A stretch of 33,707 nucleotides of DNA, taken from a virus. A model generated the notes under the pieces. It worked only from the letters and a program-made list of their open reading frames with translations, was not told the origin of the DNA and did not search any database. A program made the position numbers and the translations under genes. Shown here piece by piece: positions 5,127 to 26,179 of this stretch (its first letter is position 1; each line of letters starts with the position of its first letter). The stretch spans positions 1 to 33,707 of the IMG/VR virus record IMGVR_UViG_3300045454_000107. The stretch is one strand, 5' to 3'.

Positions 5127-5537
5127 TTAAAAGCGGGGCATGATGCGGACTTCGTAGACTTCGCCGGCGTCGACGACCTTGGGTGCCATGGTGCGCCAGG
5201 CGACCAGGCCGCCGTCGGCGTCGATCAGGCCAGCCTCAGAAAACGCCATGCCCGGCGGGGCGCTGGCGGCGTTGAGTTCGGCAATGGACAGCGCCTCGGT
5301 GGGCGCGGGGCGCGACTGGCTGACGATGGGCACACGCACACGCTCGGCGTAGAGCGCGCTGCGGTTGGCTGGGGCGGGCCGGGCGCTGGAGCCGACATGG
5401 CCGCCGTCGCCGAAGGCCATGTGGGTGATGCGCGGCAGCGCGCGGCCACCGGCGCAGTGTTCGGCCAGGCGCTCGCGCCAGTAGTCGGTGACCACGGCTT
5501 CGGCGCGCAACAGAGTGGGTGGGCTGGGTGTACTCAT
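5127..5537 (-). CDS. tail-collar fibre protein (DUF3751-like)
   Basis: A 136-aa protein resembling the N-terminal tail-collar domain (DUF3751) that attaches fibres to the baseplate. Family-like features are HMAFGDGGHVG near residue 39, the following Tyr/Glu-rich strand (SALYAERVRVPIVSQ), and AFSEAGLIDADGGLVAWRTM. Here it is a free-standing gene rather than the head of the long fibre, which begins 12 bp after its stop. It overlaps tail gene I by 4 bp (ATGA). The fibre may be assembled from this adaptor plus the diversified distal protein; that is inference. Confidence 0.75.
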   Translation of the reverse strand: MSTPSPPTLLRAEAVVTDYWRERLAEHCAGGRALPRITHMAFGDGGHVGSSARPAPANRSALYAERVRVPIVSQSRPAPTEALSIAELNAASAPPGMAFSEAGLIDADGGLVAWRTMAPKVVDAGEVYEVRIMPRF

Positions 5538-6697
5538 GGCTGGATGCGGGTGATGCTGAGGGTGGGGGTGCGCGCGCCGCCGACGCGCCAGTGCGGCGAC
5601 AGGCGCAGGTGTACGGGTGCGGCCGGGTGGGTGACGGCACCGAGCGGCCAGCGGCCATCGAGGCGCGGGCACTCGTGCAGGGTTTGCGCCGCCAGGCGCA
5701 GGCCGCCGGGGCGCAGGCGTTGCCCGGCGCGCAGGCGCGCGCTGCTCAAGCGCCAGCGGCCATCGAGGCGGCGCGGGCGCTTGAACAGCGTGGTGGGCGG
5801 GGTGACGGCGGGGGCAAGCTGCAGCGGCAGGCGTTCGGGCCGCCAGGCGCTGGCTTGCGCCAGCGGCAGTTGCGCGCGCACGCCGTGGCCGACGCGGGTG
5901 CCGTGCAAGCGGGCGCCGGGGCGTGCGCCGTGCAAGCGCCCGAGCGCAAAGCCGAAGGGCTGCGGCAGGCGCAGGGCGGCACCGTCAGTGCCCAAGCGCC
6001 AGAGCGCATCGGGGTAGGTCGACAGGCTGCGGTTGCCCCAAGGGTGCAGGCGGCTGCTGTGCAGCGTGGCGCGCACGGCGGCGCTGGCCGCCAGCAGGTG
6101 CGGCGCGTGCAGCGCCAGCCAGAGCTGCCAGATCGGGTGGCGCGACAGCGGCGTCCACTCGCGCACCAGGGCTTGCATGAGCGGCAGTTGGCCGGACTCG
6201 AGCGCGTCGGCCAGGTTGATGCGGGCCACGAACTGCGCCCAGTGCTCGATCTGCGGGATGTAGGTCTGGCGGTCGAGCGCGCGCAGGCGCACCGCGCTGG
6301 ATAAGCGCCAGCGCGCATCGAGCCGCTGCGGCAGCAAGGCGGCGTAGATGCGGCGCTGGTCGGCTTGCTCGATGATCTCGACCGCCAGCCCGTGCTGGCG
6401 CAGCACCTCGCGCAGCGCCCAGGGTGTGCCTTTTTTTTGCTGCCAGGGGATGGCGCGCTTGATGAGCGCACGCTGCGCGGCGGCGTCGCGCGCCAGCGCC
6501 CAGCCCTCGAGTGCGCCCAGGTGGAACTGCTGCGCCAACGCGGGCAGCCAGCGCGCGTCGACCTGGTCGACGAGGTAGACCAGCAGTTGGTCGACCGGCA
6601 GCGCCGACAGGCGCGGCACCAGACTGGTCAGCGGCCCCAGGCGCGCGTCGAGCGCGAGCACGTCGGGGGCGGCGGGGTCGGGCAGCCAGTCAGCCAT
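5534..6697 (-). CDS. phage tail protein I (baseplate, Mu gp48-like)
   Basis: A 387-aa baseplate protein of the P2 gpI family. The N-terminal ~200 residues carry the family pattern (VDQLLVYLVDQVDARWLPAL, then RALIKRAIPWQQKKGTPWAL). The protein is about twice the usual length. The extra C-terminal half contains spaced copies of a short motif (RLDARWRLSS near 125, then RLDGRWRLSS and RLDGRWPLGA near the end), suggesting a repetitive beta structure. It overlaps J by 8 bp and the collar gene by 4 bp. Confidence 0.85.
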   Translation of the reverse strand: MADWLPDPAAPDVLALDARLGPLTSLVPRLSALPVDQLLVYLVDQVDARWLPALAQQFHLGALEGWALARDAAAQRALIKRAIPWQQKKGTPWALREVLRQHGLAVEIIEQADQRRIYAALLPQRLDARWRLSSAVRLRALDRQTYIPQIEHWAQFVARINLADALESGQLPLMQALVREWTPLSRHPIWQLWLALHAPHLLAASAAVRATLHSSRLHPWGNRSLSTYPDALWRLGTDGAALRLPQPFGFALGRLHGARPGARLHGTRVGHGVRAQLPLAQASAWRPERLPLQLAPAVTPPTTLFKRPRRLDGRWRLSSARLRAGQRLRPGGLRLAAQTLHECPRLDGRWPLGAVTHPAAPVHLRLSPHWRVGGARTPTLSITRIQP

Positions 6698-7508
6698 CGC
6701 TCACTCCGGCCATGCGCAGGCTGCGCTGCGTCACGTGCGCCCAGGCGTGCGCGGGGGTGGCTGTGTCCGCATTCGGCGCGACAAGCTCCACGCGGTACAC
6801 GCCGGGCACCGAGAGCGCGGCGATGATCTGCGAGCGCACCACGTCGCGCCCAAGTGCGCTGGCCAGCTCGGTGCAGTAGCGCTCCAGCGCCGCCTGCGCC
6901 AGCGCCAAGGTGGCGGCGGCGTCGGCTCTGCGCCACAGCGTCAGCTCGGCCTCGATGCGCTGCGGCATATCGAGCGGCGCGCGCACTTCGACCTGGTCGC
7001 ACAGCGGGCGCACGTCTTCGGCGCTGGCGGCGGCGAGCACGGCATCGAGCAGCTCGGCGCTGGGCAGGCCGGTGTCGGCCAGCGGATGGATGCGCACCCA
7101 GCCAGGCGCGGGCGAATCGACAGCAGCGTCGATGATGTGTACCGACGCCGACAGCGCGGCGTGGCGGTAGCCCAGACGCGGCCCGGCGGTGCTGAAGGCT
7201 TCGGGTGCCAGGCGGATGCGCTCGCGCAGGCGCTCGTCGCCCTCGCCCTCCAGCCGCGCGACGCCGACCAGCTCGCCCAGGTAGTCGAGCATGGGCGCGC
7301 GCGCGTAGGCCACGAGGTTTTGCCGCGCCACGTCGTTGATCAGGCCGCGCAGCAGGGTTTCGCGGTAGGCGATGAGGTCGACGAACAGGCGCTCGACCTG
7401 CGCCGGGTAGAGCGTCTTGCCGCTGGCGGCCTCGAAGGCGCGCACCAGCTCGGCGCTGATGGCCTGCGGGTCGTCCTCGAGCAGACGCAGCGGCGCGGCT
7501 GCGCTCAT
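6690..7508 (-). CDS. baseplate protein J (Mu gp47-like)
   Basis: A 272-aa baseplate wedge protein of the gpJ family. It starts at the ATG that overlaps the W stop (ATGA at 7505-7508). The sequence has the family order: a helical N-terminus (LYPAQVERLFVDLIAYRETL), DYLGELVGVARLEGEGDERL, then a beta-rich centre (VRIHPLADTGLPS) and a C-terminal helix pair. It is followed by gene I with an 8-bp overlap, as in P2 and Mu. A dispersed 20-bp motif lies in its 3' part (6765-6784). Confidence 0.9.
   Translation of the reverse strand: MSAAAPLRLLEDDPQAISAELVRAFEAASGKTLYPAQVERLFVDLIAYRETLLRGLINDVARQNLVAYARAPMLDYLGELVGVARLEGEGDERLRERIRLAPEAFSTAGPRLGYRHAALSASVHIIDAAVDSPAPGWVRIHPLADTGLPSAELLDAVLAAASAEDVRPLCDQVEVRAPLDMPQRIEAELTLWRRADAAATLALAQAALERYCTELASALGRDVVRSQIIAALSVPGVYRVELVAPNADTATPAHAWAHVTQRSLRMAGVSDG
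6765..6784 (-). repeat. dispersed 20-bp motif, copy in gene J
   Basis: Matches the minus-strand consensus TTGTCGCAYNNAATSCGNGC with two mismatches. It is read in gene J as the segment around ELVAPNADT. Confidence 0.6.
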
Positions 7509-10820: not shown

Positions 10821-13457
10821 CTACTGGATCGCACGCCGGGCGGCGTCGGCTTGATAGCGGCGCATGTAGCGCTCGAACTCGGCCTGGCTCAAGTGCAGCG
10901 CCTGCTGCACCTGCTCGCGCACCGCGCCGGGCTCGGCGCTTGTCGCATGGATTGTGAGCACGGGCGCGTAGTGCAGCGCCATGCCGGCGGCCGCACCGGG
11001 GGTGGGGGCGGCGCTGGCGGGCGCGGCGCTGGCTGGCTGCGGCAGTGGCAGAAGCTGGGGCTGCATGGCCGGCAGATGCTGCGGCGCGGGCTGCACGAGC
11101 GGCGCGGGCTGCGGCAGCAGCAGCGGAGTCGGCTGCGCCGCGCTCATGCCGAAGGTGGCCGCAGCGGCCAGCCCGGCGGCGGCTTGCGCCACGCCGTTGG
11201 CGCTGGCGTACATGCCCTGCGCCAGCCCCTGCCCCAGGTGCGCGCCCAGGGCGGCAAACACGCGCGAGGGCGAGCGGATGCCGAGCAAGTTGCGCAGCCC
11301 CGCCACCGCGCTCTGGCCCAGGCTGCGCACCGCCTCCACGGCAGCGCCGATGCGCTGGCGTATGCCCTGCGCCAGGCCGTCGACCAGGGCGGTGCCCAGG
11401 GACAGCATTTGGGCGGGCAGACCCTGCAGCCAGACCCAGGCCTGGGCAAAGCCGCTGCGCAGCGCGCTCCAGACGCCGCCCACCGTCGATGCAATGCGAC
11501 CCCAGACAACCGACAGGGTCGAGGCAATGCCGCCCCAGAGGCTGGCAAACAGCGGCCCGAGCCGATCCCAGTGGCGCCAGATCAGGTAGGCGCCGCCCGC
11601 GATGACCGTCACCGCCAGGCCGATCGGGTTGAGCATCAGCGCCCGCCCCAGCCACAGCAGCGCCTTGCCCGCCGCCAGCAGCGCGCCCTTGAGGGCGCCG
11701 CCGAGCAGCCGCGCCAGCACCCAGACGCCCTGCGCCAGCAGCTTGAGCGGCATAAAAACCGCCATCCACAGGCCTTTGCCAAACGCGGCCGCCAGCGGCA
11801 ACACCGCCTTGAAAGCCGCGCCCAGGCCAGACAGGGCGCGCAGCGCCGGCGCAAACGCGCCAATCTGCCACAAGCCTTTGAGCCACAGCCAACGCCCGCC
11901 CACCATCAGCAGCGCCGTGCGCAAGGCGTTCAGGGGCGAAAGAATCAGGAAGCTCACCGCCCAGCCCGCACCCAGCACCGCCAGCTTGCCTGCGGTGAGC
12001 GCCAGCCCCAGGGCCACCACGCCCTGAATCAGGGCCGGATGCGCCTGCGCCCAGGCGGCCAGCGTGCGCGCAAACGGTGCCACGGTCTCCATGATCGACA
12101 CCAGCGGCGGCAGCAGGGCCTCGCCGATGGAGACGCCGATGTCGCGCGCCAGCACGCCAAAGCGCTTCATCTGCTCGCTGCTGGCCTCCATGCGCCGGGC
12201 AAAGTCCTGCGACACCAAGTCCGACCCGGCGGCGTCGAGCGCACCGGCGCGGATGCTCTGGAACTCGTCCATGTTTTGCAGCGCCGGGCGGATGAAGCTC
12301 ATGACCTGCATGTCCTGGAACAGATTGCCCAGGCCGTAGGCTTGCGTCAGCGCCTGGATGCCGGCCAGGTCGCCCGCGCGCGTGGCGGCGTCGAACTGCC
12401 GCAGCGCACCCGCGCCGCCCACTTGCTGCATGTAGCGCCGGATCAGCTCCAGCGTGCCCATCAGCGGCGACATGCCCTGGGCGCGCAGATCGATCAGGCT
12501 GCCCTTGAGGTCGATGCCGGCGCGCTCGAAGTTGCGCAGCGTCTCGGGCGCGGTGATGCGCGCCAGAAAATTGCGCAGGTTGTTGGCGGCCTCGTCCGAT
12601 GACCCGGCCCCCATGCGCGCAATTTGCAAGGCTGCACCCAGCTCAGCCACCGCCTCCTTGCCCGTCACGCCCAGCCCCTGCATCATGGGGGCCAGGTTGG
12701 GCATCCACCTGGCCATTTCGCGCATCTCAAACTGGCCCCGCTTGCCAGCGTAGGTCAGCATGTTGAACGCCGCCCCGGCCTCCTGCGCACCCAGCCCGAG
12801 ATTGCTGCGCAAGACCACGAACACGTTGGACAAGTCCTCGACGCTGGCGCGCGTGGCCGTGGCCGTCTCGGCCAGTATGGGTGCAAAGCGCTCCAGCTCG
12901 GCCACCGAGGTCACGCCGGCAGCCACCAGCACCTGCAGCCCAGCGCCGATGTCGGTTGCGTGCTGGTTGTAGCGCAGCGCGGTAGCGCGCAGCGTCTGGC
13001 CCAGTTTTTGCTGCTCCTGCCGGGTCAGATCGCCGGTGATGGCGATGTCGTTCGTCAAGTCCTCCAGCGCTGTTGCCAGGTGCACCGACGCGATCACCGG
13101 CGCGGCTACCGCCACGGCGGCGCCGAAGGTCTCTTGCATGGCCCCCAAGCGCTCTTCGCGCGCCGCCTTGAGCTCGGCACCGCGCTCGATCGATCGGTTC
13201 AGGGCTTCGGTCTTGCTGCGCACCTGCTCCAGCGTGCGCCCGAGTGCGTCGTAGCGCTGGCGCAACTGGCCCAGCGGTTGCAGCGGGTCGGCCATGGCAC
13301 GCGCCATGGCGGCACCGAGCTGCTCGTGCCGCGTCTGCATGCGCCCGGCCACCGCGCCCAGGTCGGTCACGGCTCGCTGGGCGCCACCCAGCGCCACGCG
13401 AAACGACGCCGCCAGGGCCGCCCCGATGACGATCTGCAAACCCAAGTTAGAGCTCAT
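10821..13457 (-). CDS. tail tape measure protein
   Basis: An 878-aa TP901-type tape measure protein that sets tail length and is released on injection. The start at 13457 is set by GGAGG 8 nt upstream; a start 7 codons earlier would lie before this site. The family core is around residues 90-330 (VHLATALEDLTNDIAITGDL; VAAGVTSVAELERFAPI). A hydrophobic middle (about 470-640) contains several potential membrane segments. The C-terminal part is Pro/Ala/Gln-rich and ends in a helical tail (QAEFERYMRRYQADAARRAI). A dispersed motif lies at 10940. Confidence 0.92.
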   Translation of the reverse strand: MSSNLGLQIVIGAALAASFRVALGGAQRAVTDLGAVAGRMQTRHEQLGAAMARAMADPLQPLGQLRQRYDALGRTLEQVRSKTEALNRSIERGAELKAAREERLGAMQETFGAAVAVAAPVIASVHLATALEDLTNDIAITGDLTRQEQQKLGQTLRATALRYNQHATDIGAGLQVLVAAGVTSVAELERFAPILAETATATRASVEDLSNVFVVLRSNLGLGAQEAGAAFNMLTYAGKRGQFEMREMARWMPNLAPMMQGLGVTGKEAVAELGAALQIARMGAGSSDEAANNLRNFLARITAPETLRNFERAGIDLKGSLIDLRAQGMSPLMGTLELIRRYMQQVGGAGALRQFDAATRAGDLAGIQALTQAYGLGNLFQDMQVMSFIRPALQNMDEFQSIRAGALDAAGSDLVSQDFARRMEASSEQMKRFGVLARDIGVSIGEALLPPLVSIMETVAPFARTLAAWAQAHPALIQGVVALGLALTAGKLAVLGAGWAVSFLILSPLNALRTALLMVGGRWLWLKGLWQIGAFAPALRALSGLGAAFKAVLPLAAAFGKGLWMAVFMPLKLLAQGVWVLARLLGGALKGALLAAGKALLWLGRALMLNPIGLAVTVIAGGAYLIWRHWDRLGPLFASLWGGIASTLSVVWGRIASTVGGVWSALRSGFAQAWVWLQGLPAQMLSLGTALVDGLAQGIRQRIGAAVEAVRSLGQSAVAGLRNLLGIRSPSRVFAALGAHLGQGLAQGMYASANGVAQAAAGLAAAATFGMSAAQPTPLLLPQPAPLVQPAPQHLPAMQPQLLPLPQPASAAPASAAPTPGAAAGMALHYAPVLTIHATSAEPGAVREQVQQALHLSQAEFERYMRRYQADAARRAIQ
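10940..10959 (+). repeat. dispersed 20-bp motif, copy in tape measure gene
   Basis: TTGTCGCATGGATTGTGAGC, two mismatches to the consensus; the weakest of the set. Orientation is opposite to the RT copies. Confidence 0.45.
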
Positions 13458-14425: not shown

Positions 14426-14947
14426 TCAGCCCCCGATGTGCGTGCGGTAGGTCGCCAGCACGTCCTGCCCGGCGGCCTTGTAGATGTTGGCCAGGGCGTC
14501 GATTTCCATGATGTCCTCGCCGCCCACGGTCAGCTTCATGTAGGTGGCGGTGAACTCGCTTTCCAGCTCGACGTTCTCGTGCTGCTTGTAGCCGCCGCCG
14601 GGTAGGCTTTTGAAGGTCACGGTCAGCAGCGCCACCAGCGGCAGCTCCTGGCTGCGCCCGGCGCTGGAATACACCTCGACGCTGGCGCGCAGTTGCAGTT
14701 GCACGCTGGCAAAGGGGTTGGCGGTTTTTTTCAGCGCCTCGGGGTAGAGGCTGGACCACTTGATCTTGCCCTCCAGCTTTTCGAAGCCGGCATAGGCCTC
14801 GATGCTGCCCACCATGCCCAGCGCCTTGTGCTCGGCCATTTTGGCCTTGAGCACCGGCAGCTCGACTTCTTCGGCGCGCCCGAGCATGGAGCCGCCGTCG
14901 AGGTAGACGTTGGCGTTGGTCAGGCGGTGGATGTTGATTTTGCTCAT
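14426..14947 (-). CDS. major tail tube protein (P2 FII-like)
   Basis: A 173-aa tube protein. Typical features are MSKINIHRLTNANVYLDGGS, the basic/acidic helix VLKAKMAEHKALGMVG, and a C-terminal ATYMKLTVGGEDIMEIDALA with IYKAAGQDVLATYRTHIG. In P2-like tails it follows the sheath; here a ~265-bp stretch with an antiparallel gene separates the two. Confidence 0.92.
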   Translation of the reverse strand: MSKINIHRLTNANVYLDGGSMLGRAEEVELPVLKAKMAEHKALGMVGSIEAYAGFEKLEGKIKWSSLYPEALKKTANPFASVQLQLRASVEVYSSAGRSQELPLVALLTVTFKSLPGGGYKQHENVELESEFTATYMKLTVGGEDIMEIDALANIYKAAGQDVLATYRTHIGG

Positions 14948-14978
14948 AATGTTGACCTCTCATTCGTGGGAATTGCAC

Positions 14979-15206
14979 ATGCACGGTCTTTCCTTGATGG
15001 TGGACTCTCCGCTTGAAGTAGCCATGGACGCATCAGGACAGTTAAGGGTTTCCTGCTACCAGTCGGTGGCCGGGCAGACTGAGGCCCTGCGTCTTGAGCT
15101 GCTTCTGACACCAACAGCGGCAGCAGCGCTACTCCACGCACTTCGTCACCTTGAAACACAGGGAATAGACCTGACAGCAGGCGCCAGGCCAGCCACTCGG
15201 CAATAG
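14979..15206 (+). CDS. antiparallel small protein between sheath and tube
   Basis: A 75-aa frame on the plus strand in the only gap of the sheath-tube pair. The C-terminal part (SVAGQTEALRLELLLTPTAA then LLHALRHLETQGIDLT) looks like a small conserved phage protein, with a beta strand and an amphipathic helix. Base composition is visibly less GC-rich than the neighbours, which fits acquisition. The ribosome site is weak (GGGA). Internal starts at 14997 and 15024 are possible. The opposite frame, beginning MIRTIAEWLAWRL, is also open and cannot be excluded. Confidence 0.5.
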   Translation: MHGLSLMVDSPLEVAMDASGQLRVSCYQSVAGQTEALRLELLLTPTAAAALLHALRHLETQGIDLTAGARPATRQ

Positions 15207-19387: not shown

Positions 19388-20464
19388 TCAGGCCGCCTGG
19401 CCCATCACGTGCGCCACGGCGGCGGCAAAGCTCACGCGCTCGCCGGCGCGCTCGCGCTCGTCTTGCCAGGCTTGGGCGGCGCGTGCGACGGCGCTCGGGT
19501 CGGCACTGGATGCGGCAGCGGCAGCGGTGCTGTTGCTGGCGCTGGGCGCAGCGCTGGGGGCGGCGGCGGCCCATTGGGCAAAGCCGGCCGGGTCTTTGCT
19601 GGCGTAGGCGCGCGCCCACACCAGCATGGCCGGGGGCACCTTGCCTGCGCTCATGGCGGCCTGTACGGCGGCTTCGGCAGCGGCGGCGGCTTGCTCCTTG
19701 GCCACTTGCGCGAGCTGGGCTTGCAGCGCCGCTTGCGCGGCTTGCGCGGCCTGGGCGCTGGCTTCAGATTCGCTCAGGCGCTGCTGCAGCGCTTGCGCAG
19801 CGGCGAGCAGCTCGGCGGCGCTGCTCAGGCCCGGCTGGCCGAGCAAGGCGCGCAGGCGCTCCAGGGCATCGGCCTCCAGGCTCATGGCGGCCTGGGCGCT
19901 GGCGGGTTTGGATTCGGGGGCGGTGGGGGTGGCAGACATGGCGGGTGTGCTCTCCGGTTGGCGTTGGCTGGCAGCGGCTTGCAAGGCCGCCAGGTTGGGG
20001 GTGTGGGTCAGGGCGGCGCCGTCGAGCGCCACCACGCGCGCGTCGGCCGTCAGGTAGCGGAACACCGGCGAGAGGTAGCGGTAGGCGCGGGCGGCGAGCA
20101 GCTCGGCGGCTTGCGCCGTCCAGCGCACGCGGCCCCAGATGCCGTCGGTGCGCGCTTCCAGCGCCTCGATCCAGCCCGCCACCGGCACCGGCCCGGCCTT
20201 GCTGGCGGCGTCGAGCGTCTGGTGTTCGTAGTCCAGCGGCAAGTCGCCGCCGTGGGCGGCAAAGGCGGCCAGCACGGCGTCGGCGTCGAGCGTGTAGGGG
20301 CCGCGCCCGTCGCGCCCGGCAAAAGTGCCGGCCGGCAGCAGGTGTACCCATTGTGGTGCGTCCGATCCTTCGGCCTGCGCCGCCAGCGGCAGCGCCAGGG
20401 CGCGGCTGCACGCGGCAGCCTCGGCCGGGGCGGGTTGGGTGGGGGCAAGCGGTGCGGCAGGCAT
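19388..20464 (-). CDS. prohead protease I with nested scaffold Z
   Basis: A 358-aa Mu gpI-like protein. The N-terminal ~165 residues are the protease (WVHLLPAGTFAGRDGRGPYT; GDLPLDYEHQTLDA; AYRYLSPVFRYLTAD, with conserved His and Ser candidates). The C-terminal half is a charged Ala/Gln coiled coil typical of scaffold. An internal ATG at 19939 (residue 176, MSATPTAPESKP) preceded by GGAGAG could initiate the scaffold Z alone, as in Mu. The gene is first after a late promoter element (20496-20522), and a palindrome sits right before its ATG. Confidence 0.9.
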   Translation of the reverse strand: MPAAPLAPTQPAPAEAAACSRALALPLAAQAEGSDAPQWVHLLPAGTFAGRDGRGPYTLDADAVLAAFAAHGGDLPLDYEHQTLDAASKAGPVPVAGWIEALEARTDGIWGRVRWTAQAAELLAARAYRYLSPVFRYLTADARVVALDGAALTHTPNLAALQAAASQRQPESTPAMSATPTAPESKPASAQAAMSLEADALERLRALLGQPGLSSAAELLAAAQALQQRLSESEASAQAAQAAQAALQAQLAQVAKEQAAAAAEAAVQAAMSAGKVPPAMLVWARAYASKDPAGFAQWAAAAPSAAPSASNSTAAAAASSADPSAVARAAQAWQDERERAGERVSFAAAVAHVMGQAA

Positions 20465-20465
20465 G

Positions 20466-20480
20466 GGGGCATCATGCCCC
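20466..20480. promoter_or_regulatory. leader palindrome before protease gene
   Basis: GGGGCAT C ATGCCCC: 7-bp arms with a single-base centre, 1 nt from the ATG at 20464. It would hide the only purine-rich stretch (AGGGG) in a hairpin. Confidence 0.6.
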
Positions 20481-20495
20481 TGGGCGGCCCCAACC

Positions 20496-20522
20496 TGAAT
20501 TAAAGCCGTTTAGCCTGTAGCC
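20496..20522 (-). promoter_or_regulatory. late promoter element (protease-head-tail block)
   Basis: Second of three related elements. On the minus strand it contains AGGCTAAACGGCTTTAATTCA. Its end is 31 nt from the start of the protease gene. Mu has its PI promoter in the corresponding place. Confidence 0.75.
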
Positions 20523-20647
20523 GCAATGCCGCTCAAACGCGCCAGAACCCCGTTGCCAGCGTTTGCCAGGGCCTGGGACATACCAAGGGTGCGGCTGGGG
20601 CCAAAAATCGATTGTGGGGCGTTTTGGGCGGCTGAGGGTATTGGCAC

Positions 20648-21469
20648 TCAGTCCGCATCCGGGTCGAATGTGTCTTCAACGTGGTAGTCGATGATGGTGT
20701 AGACCTTCGGCACGCCGCGCACGGTTTGCACCCGCACGTCCACGATGTAGGCCAGCTCGTGCCACTGGCGCGCAAAACGCGCGTCGCCAGCCAGCATGGC
20801 TTTCTTGACGGCGTTGTTCTCGAAGATGACTTTCACTGGCTGGGTGCTGATGCTCTCGATCACCGCGCGGTCGCCGGTGTTGGCGTTGTCGGCAAACTTG
20901 GTTTGGCTCCAGAACATGACGCGCTTGCGCTGCACGTGATCGTCCGGCTCGTTGAGCGCTTCCAATTGGCGACGGATGCCGTTTTGCGCCGCGCTGGCCT
21001 GCTCGGAGCTGATGATGAACTGGTTCACGACCCTGCCGCCTTGCGCGACGGTGAAGTTCATCTGCGCTGCGCCGTCCTTGGCGACCGGTTCGAGGATATT
21101 GCTCCACTGTCGCAGGTCACTCTTGCTCAAGTCCTTGGGCGGGTGCGTCAGCTTGCCGTTGAGCCACTCAATCACCCACTGAGCGTGCTTGACCCATTCC
21201 AGCAAGGAGCCGCCCTGCCAAAGCAGCGGCACCACGGGCATGAATTGCGCCACCAGTTCGACGACAATCGAGCCTGAGCGCACGTCCTTGATGTACAGCT
21301 CGGCACCCACCTGCTGCTGCGCTTGGGTCTCGTTCTCGATGAAGCGCTCGAACTGCTGGCCAACGCCGAGCAGCGCCAGCGTCAGGTCTGTCAGAACGAC
21401 CGGCTTTTGGTTGTTGATCGTGATTTCGAGCCGGTTGCCGAAGTCCAGATCGAGCAGTGCATGGGGCAT
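20648..21469 (-). CDS. accessory protein of unknown function
   Basis: A 273-aa protein inserted between gpG and the late protease promoter. It has less biased codons and lower GC than its neighbours. There is a beta-rich N-terminus (LEITINNQKPVVLTDLTLAL), then a strand with YIKDVRSGSIVVELV and a hydrophobic segment (AQFMPVVPLLWQGGSLLEWV, perhaps membrane-associated). A second half of strands and helices follows (RQWHELAYIVDVRVQTV; YTIIDYHVEDTF). Not a Mu structural gene that I recognise. Its start is 5 bp from the start of a divergent gene (21475). It is most likely a cargo (moron) gene; function unknown. Confidence 0.75.
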   Translation of the reverse strand: MPHALLDLDFGNRLEITINNQKPVVLTDLTLALLGVGQQFERFIENETQAQQQVGAELYIKDVRSGSIVVELVAQFMPVVPLLWQGGSLLEWVKHAQWVIEWLNGKLTHPPKDLSKSDLRQWSNILEPVAKDGAAQMNFTVAQGGRVVNQFIISSEQASAAQNGIRRQLEALNEPDDHVQRKRVMFWSQTKFADNANTGDRAVIESISTQPVKVIFENNAVKKAMLAGDARFARQWHELAYIVDVRVQTVRGVPKVYTIIDYHVEDTFDPDAD

Positions 21470-21474
21470 GATGT

Positions 21475-21807
21475 ATGAAGCCTAACACGATAATCAACCG
21501 CGGGCGCGAGTGGCTCAAGGTGCGCTCGCCCGACATGGTGGGCGCGGCGCAGTGGCGCGTGCTGCGCGCTGCGCGCACGGTGCCGGTGGCCATTTTGCAC
21601 ACCGAGTGGCTGCGCGCCTACCACCAGCGCGAAGTGGCGCTGCTGCCGGGCGACGCGCTCGATGCCGAGTTCGAGGAAAGCATCGCCTACGATGCCGACG
21701 GCAACGAGCTGAGCCGCCGCCTGGCCGTCATTCGGGTGCACGGCATCAAGTCGCCCCCGCGCCAGATGCCGCTGCCCAGCGGCGCGCCCGGCGCGCTCGA
21801 GCCCTGA
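21475..21807 (+). CDS. antiparallel accessory protein
   Basis: A 110-aa protein on the plus strand, divergent from the 20648-21469 gene and convergent with gpG. Only 5 bp separate the two divergent start codons, so each promoter must lie inside the other gene. Strong GC3 supports the frame. It has a basic N-terminus (NTIINRGREWLKVRSPDMVG), an acidic middle (LDAEFEESIAYDADGNEL), then RLAVIRVHGIKSPPRQMPLP. No family recognised. Confidence 0.65.
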   Translation: MKPNTIINRGREWLKVRSPDMVGAAQWRVLRAARTVPVAILHTEWLRAYHQREVALLPGDALDAEFEESIAYDADGNELSRRLAVIRVHGIKSPPRQMPLPSGAPGALEP

Positions 21808-21821
21808 GCCTGGGCGCCGCC

Positions 21822-22271
21822 TCACAGCGCCCCTTCGATCAGCTCGCGCAGCACGTCCAGCACCGCTTCGCGGTCGCCCTGGCCCAGGGTGCGGGCCACC
21901 GGGTCGGCCAGCAACAGTCCGCGCCGGGGCATGTGCCGGGTGCCGAACTCGTGGTAGGCGGCGTAGGGCTGGCCAAAGCCGACTTCGGCAAAGTCGCGGC
22001 CCGCGCGCGAGGTCAGGCTGCCTTGCAGGTCGCCGTGTTCGTAGAGTATCGCGCCCTTGCGCTTCTTGCGCTGCAGCGTCTGGTCTTTGAGCGCCTCCCA
22101 GGGTGAGTTGTTGGGGTCGCGCCGGCGCTCGAAGCGCTGCTCCACGCGCGCCTCCAGCTCGGTGGCAATGCCGCGCATGGCGGGCCCAAGGTCGCGCACG
22201 CGGCGCTCCAGGCGCTCCAGCGCGGCGCGCAGCTCGCGCTCTTCGAGGCGGATGGTGATCGGGGCGGGCAT
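21822..22271 (-). CDS. virion morphogenesis protein (Mu gpG-like)
   Basis: A 149-aa protein of the Phage_tail_S / gpG family: RGIATELEARVEQRFERRRD, then the hallmark WEALKDQTLQRKKRKGAILY and EHGDLQGSLTSRAGRDFAEV, ending in YAAYHEFGTRHMPRRGLLLA. It acts in head-tail joining. The longer open frame to 22385 would begin in the structured intergenic region, so the ATG at 22271 is preferred. The ribosome site is weak. Confidence 0.9.
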   Translation of the reverse strand: MPAPITIRLEERELRAALERLERRVRDLGPAMRGIATELEARVEQRFERRRDPNNSPWEALKDQTLQRKKRKGAILYEHGDLQGSLTSRAGRDFAEVGFGQPYAAYHEFGTRHMPRRGLLLADPVARTLGQGDREAVLDVLRELIEGAL

Positions 22272-22466
22272 GGCTGGGGGCTTGCTTTGAGGGTTGGCCT
22301 GGGTTAGACTGCGGTCAAGGACTGGCGGCAAAATCTCCTGGCAGATGCTGAAGGTGCGCCGGACACCGAAGGTTGGTGGGGACATTTACCCACCGGGGTC
22401 GCAAAACCCTAGCAGCGGGACTTGGAGTCCGCTGCGCCAGTCCCACGGGGCCGATCCGGCGCGGCC
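22272..22466 (-). other. F-G intergenic region with three hairpins
   Basis: A 195-bp gap with no convincing gene. It holds three consecutive inverted repeats: 22375-22380/22389-22394 (GGTGGG/CCCACC, 8-nt loop), 22396-22399/22406-22409 (GGGT/ACCC, 6-nt loop) and 22412-22422/22426-22435 (a 10-bp stem with one bulged base and 3-nt loop). It could be a terminator/processing region or a structured leader for gpG. Confidence 0.5.
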
Positions 22467-23747
22467 TCACCCACCTTCTTTCTTGAGCAAACGGCGAACT
22501 TCCGAGTCGCGTATCGCGTCCTTTTGGTGCAGGCGTCGGAAACTCGTCACCCACAAACCGGCACCGGTTCGCGTGACCTTGACCACCAGCACATGCCCGC
22601 CGCCAGCGCTGCCCGAGGGCAGCACGCGCAGGTAGATCATGCTCCTGCCCTCTTGCGCCTTGTGCGTGTAGTGGCTGATCACGCCCTGGGCCTGGGCGTA
22701 GTCGGCGGGGGTGAGCTCCGGATGCCCGGCCTTTTGCTTGGCCAAGGTGTCACCGCTCAGGCTTGCCACGCGCACTTGGGCGCGCGCGCCCAGCGCCTGC
22801 GCATCGGCATCGGGCAGCCGCACCAGCGGCCAGGCGCTGCCGTCGGGCGCGGCGTACCATTGCGCAAACAGACTGGATGCCGCCATCGATTCCAGCATGG
22901 TCGAGGCAATCGGTGCCTCCCATTGGTTGGCCTTGCGCGCCAGCACGTCAATGTGCCCCTGCCAGCGCACATGCGCCTGCCCGACGTTGTAGCCAAAGCC
23001 GGGGTCTACGTTGGCGGGCACCAGGCGTGTGCTGCCGCTGCGGCTATCCACCCAGCGCTCCAGCGCTTCGTCGGGGGCGGTTTTGATGAGGTCGTCGCGG
23101 CGCTCGTACTCGCCCCGGCGCATGGGCACGGCGCGGCAGCGGCAGCGCCAGCCGTTGGGCGGGTAGTGCGTGTGCCAGAATGGGTCGTCCACCGGCAGCG
23201 TGACGTTGTGCCAGGGGCGGTGGCTTTTGCGCACGCGCTCGTCGGCGCGCGTGACGTAGCGCAAATAGGGGTGCGTGGCCTTGGCGGCCTGGATGCGCTC
23301 CCAGCGCCCGGCGGCGTAGGCCATGCGCGTGTTCACGTCGTAGATAAGCTGCAGCCGCGCCGGGTTGAAGGTGGTGCGCACCAGGCGCCCGTCGGGTGTG
23401 GGCACCTCGCGCTCGCCCCACCAGCCGGCCTCGCCCAGCAGTTGGCGCGCGTTCTTGGTCCAGTCGCGCCGCGTCAGGTCGCCGCCCACGCTGGCCTTGA
23501 TGCCCTCGTGCAGGCTTTGCAGCAAGTCGGCGCGCGCCAGGCGGCTTACCGTAAAGGCGCGCGCGTGCTCCTCGTGCCAGAGCTCGCGCCAGTCGTAGGT
23601 AAGGCGCACACGGTCGCGCCCGCGCAGGTAGCGCTGCGCCTCTTCGGGCGGCAGGCGAAAGGCGCGCGCAAAGGCGCTGGGCGTGCCAGCGTCGGGCGGC
23701 GCAAACAGCGGCACCGGGCCGGGGTCAGACTCCAGACGCACCGGCAT
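22467..23747 (-). CDS. MuF head morphogenesis protein with C-terminal PBECR-type nuclease domain
   Basis: A 426-aa minor head protein. The MuF domain spans about 60-235: YDVNTRMAYAAGRWERIQAA, then HPYLRYVTRADERVRKSHRP and the metal-binding-like GWRCRCRAVP (199-207). The tail (about 315-426) resembles the phage Barnase-EndoU-ColicinE5/D-RelE-like (PBECR) nuclease domains fused to MuF proteins: LSGDTLAKQKAGHPELTPAD, then SMIYLRVLPSG and LVVKVTRTGAGLWVTSFRRL. Such domains are thought to be injected toxins or tRNA nucleases. GGAG lies 8 nt before the ATG. The MuF part is secure; the nuclease family is judged by pattern. Confidence 0.88.
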   Translation of the reverse strand: MPVRLESDPGPVPLFAPPDAGTPSAFARAFRLPPEEAQRYLRGRDRVRLTYDWRELWHEEHARAFTVSRLARADLLQSLHEGIKASVGGDLTRRDWTKNARQLLGEAGWWGEREVPTPDGRLVRTTFNPARLQLIYDVNTRMAYAAGRWERIQAAKATHPYLRYVTRADERVRKSHRPWHNVTLPVDDPFWHTHYPPNGWRCRCRAVPMRRGEYERRDDLIKTAPDEALERWVDSRSGSTRLVPANVDPGFGYNVGQAHVRWQGHIDVLARKANQWEAPIASTMLESMAASSLFAQWYAAPDGSAWPLVRLPDADAQALGARAQVRVASLSGDTLAKQKAGHPELTPADYAQAQGVISHYTHKAQEGRSMIYLRVLPSGSAGGGHVLVVKVTRTGAGLWVTSFRRLHQKDAIRDSEVRRLLKKEGG

Positions 23748-25402: not shown

Positions 25403-26179
25403 TTAAGCCTCGATCAGGTAGATGGCGGGGATGTTGCCCGCGCCCGCCGTCAGCCCGGCCGGGGCGTTGGCGGGCAGGGTCGAGCCGCTGCCAGCGGCAA
25501 ACAGGTGCGAGATCAGCGCGTTGCCGCCCACCTGGCGACCAAGCCCGCTGGCGATGCTGTTGGTCTGCAGCGCGCGCAGCGTAGCGCCCGCCGATGCGAT
25601 CAGACAGGCCCAGTACAGCACGCCGGGCTGCAGTTCGAAGTTGGTGCCAAAATTGCCCGTCTGGTCGCCCACCGCAATGGACAGCGCCGCCGTTTGCGCC
25701 AGCAGCGCGCCCGGCTCGTCGCTGCCGTCGGCAGCGCTGCGGTTGGCGTACAGGCCCAGGCGCAGATCGCCCGCTGCCGCTACCGTGACCGATGCGCGCA
25801 GCGCACTGAGCAGCACCGGGCGCGGTGCCTGCAGCGGCACAAAATACAAGCGCTCTGCGGTCAGCACCAGCGTGCCCAGCGGCTGCGCGCTGGCATCGCC
25901 CACGATACGCGGCGTCGCCAGGCGGCGCGGCCAGGGCCGCCCGGCTGGGCCAGGCAAACCTTCCGGCCCCTCCGGCCCCATCAAACCTTCCGGCCCCGCT
26001 GGCCCGGTTGGCCCCGGCGGCCCCGGCAGACCCGGCAGACCCGGCAGACCCGGCGGCCCCGCTGGCCCAGCCGGCCCCGGCAGGCCCGGCTGTTGCGCGC
26101 GCACCACAGGCGCGCTGGCGTGTACCTGCACCAGCACCTGCGGCGAGCGCACCTGCAGCACGCGCAGCGGCTCAGTCAT
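25403..26179 (-). CDS. collagen-like repeat protein
   Basis: A 258-aa protein. After a short N-terminus ([20 protein letters not shown]) comes a run of about 16 Gly-X-Y triplets (about residues 32-82: [19 protein letters not shown] and onward), then a compact beta-rich C-terminal domain (~85-258; [35 protein letters not shown]). This layout is typical of trimeric fibres: a collagen-like shaft and a trimerising head. It lies between terminase and portal, which is unusual for a fibre; it could decorate the head. GGAGG lies 9 nt before the ATG; the gene overlaps its upstream neighbour by 8 bp. Confidence 0.8.

Follow-up and report, generated by a model that had tools for sequence, protein, structure and literature searches.

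Bacterial cassette genes have been described in phages before. Qi et al. (2023; PMC9892861) screened 10,705 genomes of phages and, according to the available text of that paper, identified integrons and CALINs, each having two or more attC sites. Integron cassettes have also been associated with defence against phages. The available text of a review of antiphage cassettes in Vibrio (PMC12409362) gives at least 16 antiphage cassettes out of 179 in V. cholerae, and 9 of 57 tested in V. parahaemolyticus. The Vibrio cassettes are described there as single-gene and mostly of uncharacterised function, with some being phage-protective. The gene analysed here is likewise single, and the same text of the review contains no mention of its family.

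The locus lies in a linear IMG/VR record of 33,707 nucleotides (IMGVR_UViG_3300045454_000107), referred to below in its entirety as the window. The phage is Mu-like, with a transposition protein and Mu-type head genes, gpG and protease. A scan of ten further proteins from the window produced matches to a DNA transposition protein, both terminases, the portal, and the minor and major head proteins.

The two reading frames and their setting

An earlier note on this DNA described a divergent pair of accessory genes inside the head gene cluster, with 5 bp between their start codons. Both reading frames are present at the positions described, and both have real homologues (phrog_9226, E = 3e-48, and NF053583, E = 3e-10, respectively). 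They lie between the Mu-like genes G and I, which bears out the location within the head cluster. The features are as follows:

20648–21469, minus strand: open reading frame of 273 residues, phrog_9226 family, an accessory gene most likely derived from an integron cassette
21475–21807, plus strand: open reading frame of 110 residues, C-terminal domain of a LAPAL/PDC-S42 family protein
21822–22385, minus strand: gpG-like virion morphogenesis gene (Pfam Phage_tail_S, 1e-23; phrog_26), upstream border of the insertion site
19388–20464, minus strand: Mu-like I protease gene (Pfam Mu-like_Pro, 5e-58), downstream border of the insertion site

The start codons are at 21467–21469 (minus) and 21475–21477 (plus), with 21470–21474 between them. 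Six divergent pairs among the mechanically called reading frames of at least 100 residues in the window have starts no more than 20 bp apart, and by itself the 5-bp spacing is unremarkable. The head operon and the 273-residue gene are both on the minus strand, and the 110-residue frame alone is opposed to them. The 273-residue gene is lower in GC than its neighbours, as had been noted (0.611, against 0.753 for the protease, 0.697 for gpG and 0.709 for the 110-residue frame). An Rfam search of the window found no family.

Some other features of the window are worth recording. There is a second GC dip (0.608) at 14501–15000, beside a frame of 616 residues without a PHROG match, and at 11501–12000, inside the tape-measure region, the AT skew peaks sharply (0.429) where the GC skew is negative. 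A reading frame at 25403–26179, between the large terminase and the portal, has collagen-like and tail-fibre PHROG matches over about 50 residues. This is an odd position for a tail gene, and the similarity could be one of low complexity.

The interval between G and I was compared in related loci. In the nearest relative, L123 (60% for gpG, 63% for gpF, 53% for the portal and 44% for the protease), it is 215 bp long and contains no gene. Among ten more distant loci, a gpG-like gene is directly before the protease in three (L087, L088 and L090), the gpG-like match is elsewhere in five, and none is shown in two. Five other stretches, all from one order, were also inspected: in L125 and L126 other reading frames separate the gpG match from the protease, and L124, L127 and L128 have no protease match in range. 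Because the interval is empty in some relatives and occupied by other frames in L125 and L126, these comparisons indicate that it can take up accessory genes. The empty interval of the nearest relative, and the fact that both protein families occur mostly as scattered single genes, agree with the earlier description of the two frames as accessory cargo.

The 273-residue protein and its relatives

The 273-residue protein has a full-length match to the phrog_9226 profile (E = 3.2e-48, residues 13–262 on positions 13–254 of 261), and neither Pfam nor PADLOC gave a match. When IMG/VR was scanned with the 273-residue or the 110-residue protein as a single sequence, no relatives were found. Alignment-based scans for the 273-residue family identified 28 loci in IMG/VR and 43 in bacterial genomes. 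Identity to the window protein is 22 to 42% among the phage members and 48 to 74% for its closest relatives, which are in bacterial genomes. The close relatives have almost no neighbouring genes in common.

Two of the viral members may be mentioned here. Bordetella phage PHB09 has a family member near a BrnT gene. L034, a viral contig in which the portal gene is of Mu type, has an N-terminally shortened relative (5833–6378, 42% over 130 residues) that lies on the other strand from the portal.

A tree was constructed from 37 representatives, these being the window gene and 36 others chosen from the 71 loci of the two scans. The window gene falls inside a clade of 16 rows (support 100/100), where it is sister to L040 (99/92). 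The clade includes all eight rows labelled as cassettes, a label based on a reading of the core sites, and the ten viral rows fall apart from it. Since the window gene is nested in a cassette-bearing clade with the viral rows apart, the comparison of sequences suggests that the cassette pool, rather than the phage members of the phrog_9226 family, is its most likely source. A scan of IMG/VR with the 16-row clade found one further viral contig, L180, with a relative 50% identical; no attC was found in it by the covariance model described below.

Many of the close relatives have the signature expected of cassettes. A relaxed core, defined by a pattern that was set after viewing the data, is present within 40 nt upstream of the gene in 14 of 24 close relatives, against 7.9% of 6531 windows drawn at random from these loci. 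A relaxed R'' box is found near the stop codon in 16 of 27, against 8.4% of the 6531. The strict motif GTTRRRY occurs within 60 nt in only three of 24 relatives, because many of their cores end in GG.

A covariance model was built from 11 attC sites, L060 being left out after the first alignment. It gave 40 matches at E ≤ 0.1 in 39 sources, a number that includes the 11 training sites and some opposite-strand echoes. L040, the sister of the window gene, has matches on both sides of its gene (5906–5984 and 6815–6927), and L053, L054 and L057 are attC arrays. No clear cassette border was found in the close relatives L041, L043, L044, L047 and L058. The arrays in L053 and L054 (Comamonas and Pseudoxanthomonas) have many attC sites and contain closely related cassettes of 272 residues, with differing array neighbours.

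The 110-residue reading frame

The 110-residue frame matches positions 209–290 of the 292 in NF053583 (LAPAL_fam), with a score of 39.9 bits that covers the model only in part and does not reach the curated cut-off of 60. Its match to the PADLOC candidate PDC-S42 is again not full-length, being limited to positions 208–299 of 302 (E = 3e-6). It thus resembles NF053583, PDC-S42 and phrog_3243 over the last 80 or so of about 292 positions, but differs from them in that the N-terminal two thirds, some 200 residues of a LAPAL-type protein of about 290, are missing. The N-terminal part of the NF053583 model is found nowhere in the window. The nearest relatives are in L037 and L038, at 56–57% identity. 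In these two loci and in L169 and L171 the corresponding segment forms the C-terminal end of a longer frame, and L037, L038 and L169 encode full-length proteins of about 290 residues. The frame in the window is open as far as the natural C-terminus of the family.

In one order, 27 of 399 genomes were matched by the LAPAL family. Neither a fixed partner for the whole family nor the setting between Mu genes G and I was found in the 14 stretches read from that order. Short reading frames that match only the C-terminal domain also occur in L163, L164 and L165, the last of which starts at a contig end. A LAPAL-family gene is located at 5503–6300 of L003, Vibrio phage Va_90-11-286_p16, near a Phd/YefM-RelE pair. 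The available text of Qi et al. (PMC9892861) describes this phage as having captured a chromosomal integron with that pair. The LAPAL family may therefore also travel as cassettes. No paper on the LAPAL or PDC-S42 proteins came up in a literature search.

The junction at the cassette core

The sequence between the two frames contains the following:

21480–21486, minus strand (read from 21486 to 21480): cassette 5' core (simple) site GTTAGGC, 10 nt before the ATG of the 273-residue gene
21486–21807, plus strand: stretch homologous to the LAPAL-type genes of L037, L038, L169 and L171, from DNA and codon alignments

The core agrees with GTTRRRY, a strict match to which is expected by chance in about 1.1% of 25-position stretches of the window, and the sister gene in L040 has an identical core at an identical distance of 10 nt from its ATG. 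The expected crossover point is between 21486 and 21485. The homology of the 110-residue frame to LAPAL-type genes begins right after the core, in both DNA and codon alignments (T-I-I-N-R-G-R-E in the window, against T-I-T-N-N-G-T-E in L171 and T-I-T-N-S-G-V-E in L038). The ATG and first codons of the frame (MKP) are cassette leader DNA read in antisense. The two starts are thus 5 bp apart because the leader supplies the start codon of the 110-residue frame at the junction, and the apparent divergent pair looks like a recombination scar.

The earlier note had treated the pair as a unit, that is, as a divergent two-gene cargo module with overlapping promoters, for example for defence or exclusion, acquired and expressed together in the lysogen. 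Both families are indeed accessory and mostly found as cargo, and that of the 110-residue frame is a PADLOC candidate. However, the frame is a C-terminal fragment that lacks two thirds of the family profile, its start lies within the cassette leader, and the spacing is accounted for by the recombination junction. No sigma-70-like promoter was found in 20300–22500. The pair was also looked for elsewhere, and in the loci examined no blastp match to the 110-residue protein was found near any relative of the 273-residue gene, so that the two do not co-occur. We consider a two-gene module to be very improbable.

The downstream side

No intact attC was found in the window by the covariance model, the best match (13.1 bits, E = 0.67) being elsewhere. 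Two short sequences downstream of the 273-residue gene were considered:

20488–20508, minus strand (read from 20508 to 20488): possible attC right-half remnant, CGGCTTTAATTCAGG then GTTGGGG, from its attC consensus score
20601–20612, minus strand: ATCGATTTTTGG, with 11 of 12 positions common to the G–I interval of L123

The right-half motif CGGCTTTAATTCAGGTTGGGG (20508–20488) scores 13 against the attC consensus. This score was reached by three of 3000 shuffles, by five of 6078 tiles of other loci, and by two of 738 tiles of the window, where the tiles overlap and the motif's own place is counted. The motif was missed by the covariance model, and an attC left half did not score above shuffles (328 of 500). 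The sequence ATCGATTTTTGG may be native phage DNA. Its occurrence in L123 would make DNA inside the supposed attC native, and so counts against a retained attC. Because there is no intact attC downstream of the reading frame, the 273-residue gene is classed as cassette-derived and not as a working cassette.

Origin of the arrangement

On the basis of these observations, we hypothesise that the arrangement arose by capture from the cassette pool, insertion into an older accessory gene, and a later deletion. We regard this explanation as a whole as probable. Before the insertion, an older plus-strand gene of LAPAL/PDC-S42 type would have been present between head genes G and I, and a cassette with the 273-residue gene would have been inserted within it, at a GTT-type site. 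A later deletion would then have taken the N-terminal two thirds of the older gene together with most or all of the cassette attC, and the loss of attC would have fixed the 273-residue gene in the phage. Two pieces would be left: an intact 273-residue gene, which could be co-transcribed with the head genes, and, cut off from the rest of the older gene, its C-terminal domain, for which a chance ATG in the leader of the cassette serves as the start of the 110-residue frame. The family membership, the nesting in the cassette clade, the 5' core and the start of the LAPAL-type homology at that core are observed, and both the action of an integrase in the insertion and the subsequent deletion are steps that we infer.

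The insertion need not have required an integrase. Ordinary illegitimate or homologous recombination from a cassette-carrying chromosome, without an integrase at the phage step and with the LAPAL fragment either co-transferred or joined elsewhere, would be compatible with a window that has no intact attC, and the available text of Qi et al. (PMC9892861) also raises illegitimate recombination at GTTRRRY-like motifs. Against this, the LAPAL-type homology starts exactly at the expected crossover point, and we consider this alternative possible but rather doubtful.

Possible remote kinship and predicted folds

Comparison of deep alignments of the 273-residue and LAPAL families using hhalign gave a collinear match with a score of 40.9 (P = 5.5e-5, probability 66%). 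As controls, none of 40 column shuffles scored above 20.3, and reversed profiles gave scores of 16.5 and 12.9. When the alignments were shallow, the profile comparison gave no link. The sequence profiles thus suggest that the two families are remote homologues, with a link that depends on alignment depth.

The predicted models for the 273-residue protein (mean pLDDT 82) and for L038 (68) both end in three strands, a helix and two strands. The best structural match of the L038 model, among the 50 listed, is Rim1 SSB (Z = 8.1, rmsd 2.7, 81 aligned), and its matches are mainly what we take to be OB-fold proteins. The 273-residue model, itself a prediction, has an OB-type match with Z = 6.2 (rmsd 3.6, 77 aligned). 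VIA matched residues 9–151 of this model mostly to ferredoxin-like folds and residues 175–273 in part to OB folds, all with Z below 6.3 and graded middling by the tool. Foldseek against the PDB gave no match to the 273-residue model at E ≤ 0.001, and sequence searches against solved structures gave nothing significant. The 110-residue frame is predicted from the models to be the OB-fold domain of a LAPAL-type protein.

Both models also match a viral DUF6575 model (A0A8S5QA00, BFVD). DUF6575 (PF20215) was considered as the family of the 273-residue protein and rejected on sequence grounds, there being no Pfam match and an hhalign probability of 0.7%. Against four DUF6575 sequences, the 273-residue family scored 20.7 and the LAPAL family 21.0, compared with 19.9 and 19.2 for the best of 30 shuffles, with a probability of 0.7% in each case. 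DUF6575 is thus a structural-model match common to both families, but kinship is not confirmed by the sequence profiles, which score barely above shuffles. It is among the domains of experimentally validated E. coli defence systems, according to the available text of Vassallo et al. (2022; PMC9519451). The phrog_9226 and LAPAL/PDC-S42 families, perhaps with DUF6575, are a candidate accessory superfamily with a C-terminal OB fold, and such a link would make a shared defence role directly testable.

Possible functions

The 110-residue OB fragment is probably a relic. It might instead be a functional stand-alone OB-fold protein under selection, perhaps a partner or antidote of the 273-residue protein. 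Its frame is open to the natural C-terminus of the family, the 273-residue and LAPAL families look remotely homologous, and C-terminal-only matches also occur in L163, L164 and L165. However, these short matches may themselves be relics or cuts at contig ends, and reading frames stay open by chance in GC-rich DNA; a selected function is in our view unlikely. More speculatively, an integrase could have put a defence cassette into a resident gene of the same remote superfamily in a transposable phage, with the OB domain kept as partner, antidote or trigger. If true, the domain and the incoming protein would be a new two-part system made by cassette insertion, but we give this very little credence.

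For the cargo itself, a role in defence or exclusion is plausible on indirect grounds, namely the PADLOC candidate label of the family of the 110-residue fragment, the integron cassette pool and the members found in prophages. We tentatively propose, with slightly more doubt than confidence, that the 273-residue protein is intracellular, with an α/β N-terminal part and a C-terminal OB fold as modelled, and that it has a defence role in limiting superinfecting phages. The neighbours of its relatives include single matches to Drt5, HerA, a CAP12 TIR domain and pPIWI-associated nucleases, for which no enrichment is claimed. The 74 neighbours in this set, at most three per locus, came from 26 close-relative loci, leaving aside a single neighbour each of L041 and L051 and all those of more distant loci.

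Comparison with known systems

A literature search on integrons together with transposable phages, prophages or morons gave, among the matches listed, no title on a lone cassette gene in such a phage. The locus would preserve legible traces of the transfer of a gene out of the pool of integron cassettes to a transposable phage, and such a phage is a vehicle able to insert in host genomes at many sites. The arrangement also provides a caution, that tightly spaced divergent reading frames in phages can be recombination scars.

The phages in the available text of Qi et al. (PMC9892861) resemble the window in having bacterial cassette genes in a phage genome. They contain integrases, arrays or a minimum of two predicted attC sites, whereas the cassette-derived gene of the window stands alone, has no intact attC, and is located in a Mu-like head operon and inside another accessory gene. 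A gene of this kind would presumably escape a screen of that type. Integron cassettes in phages are already known, but the arrangement seen here, a lone cassette-derived gene within a head operon, appears to be a new variation on this theme.
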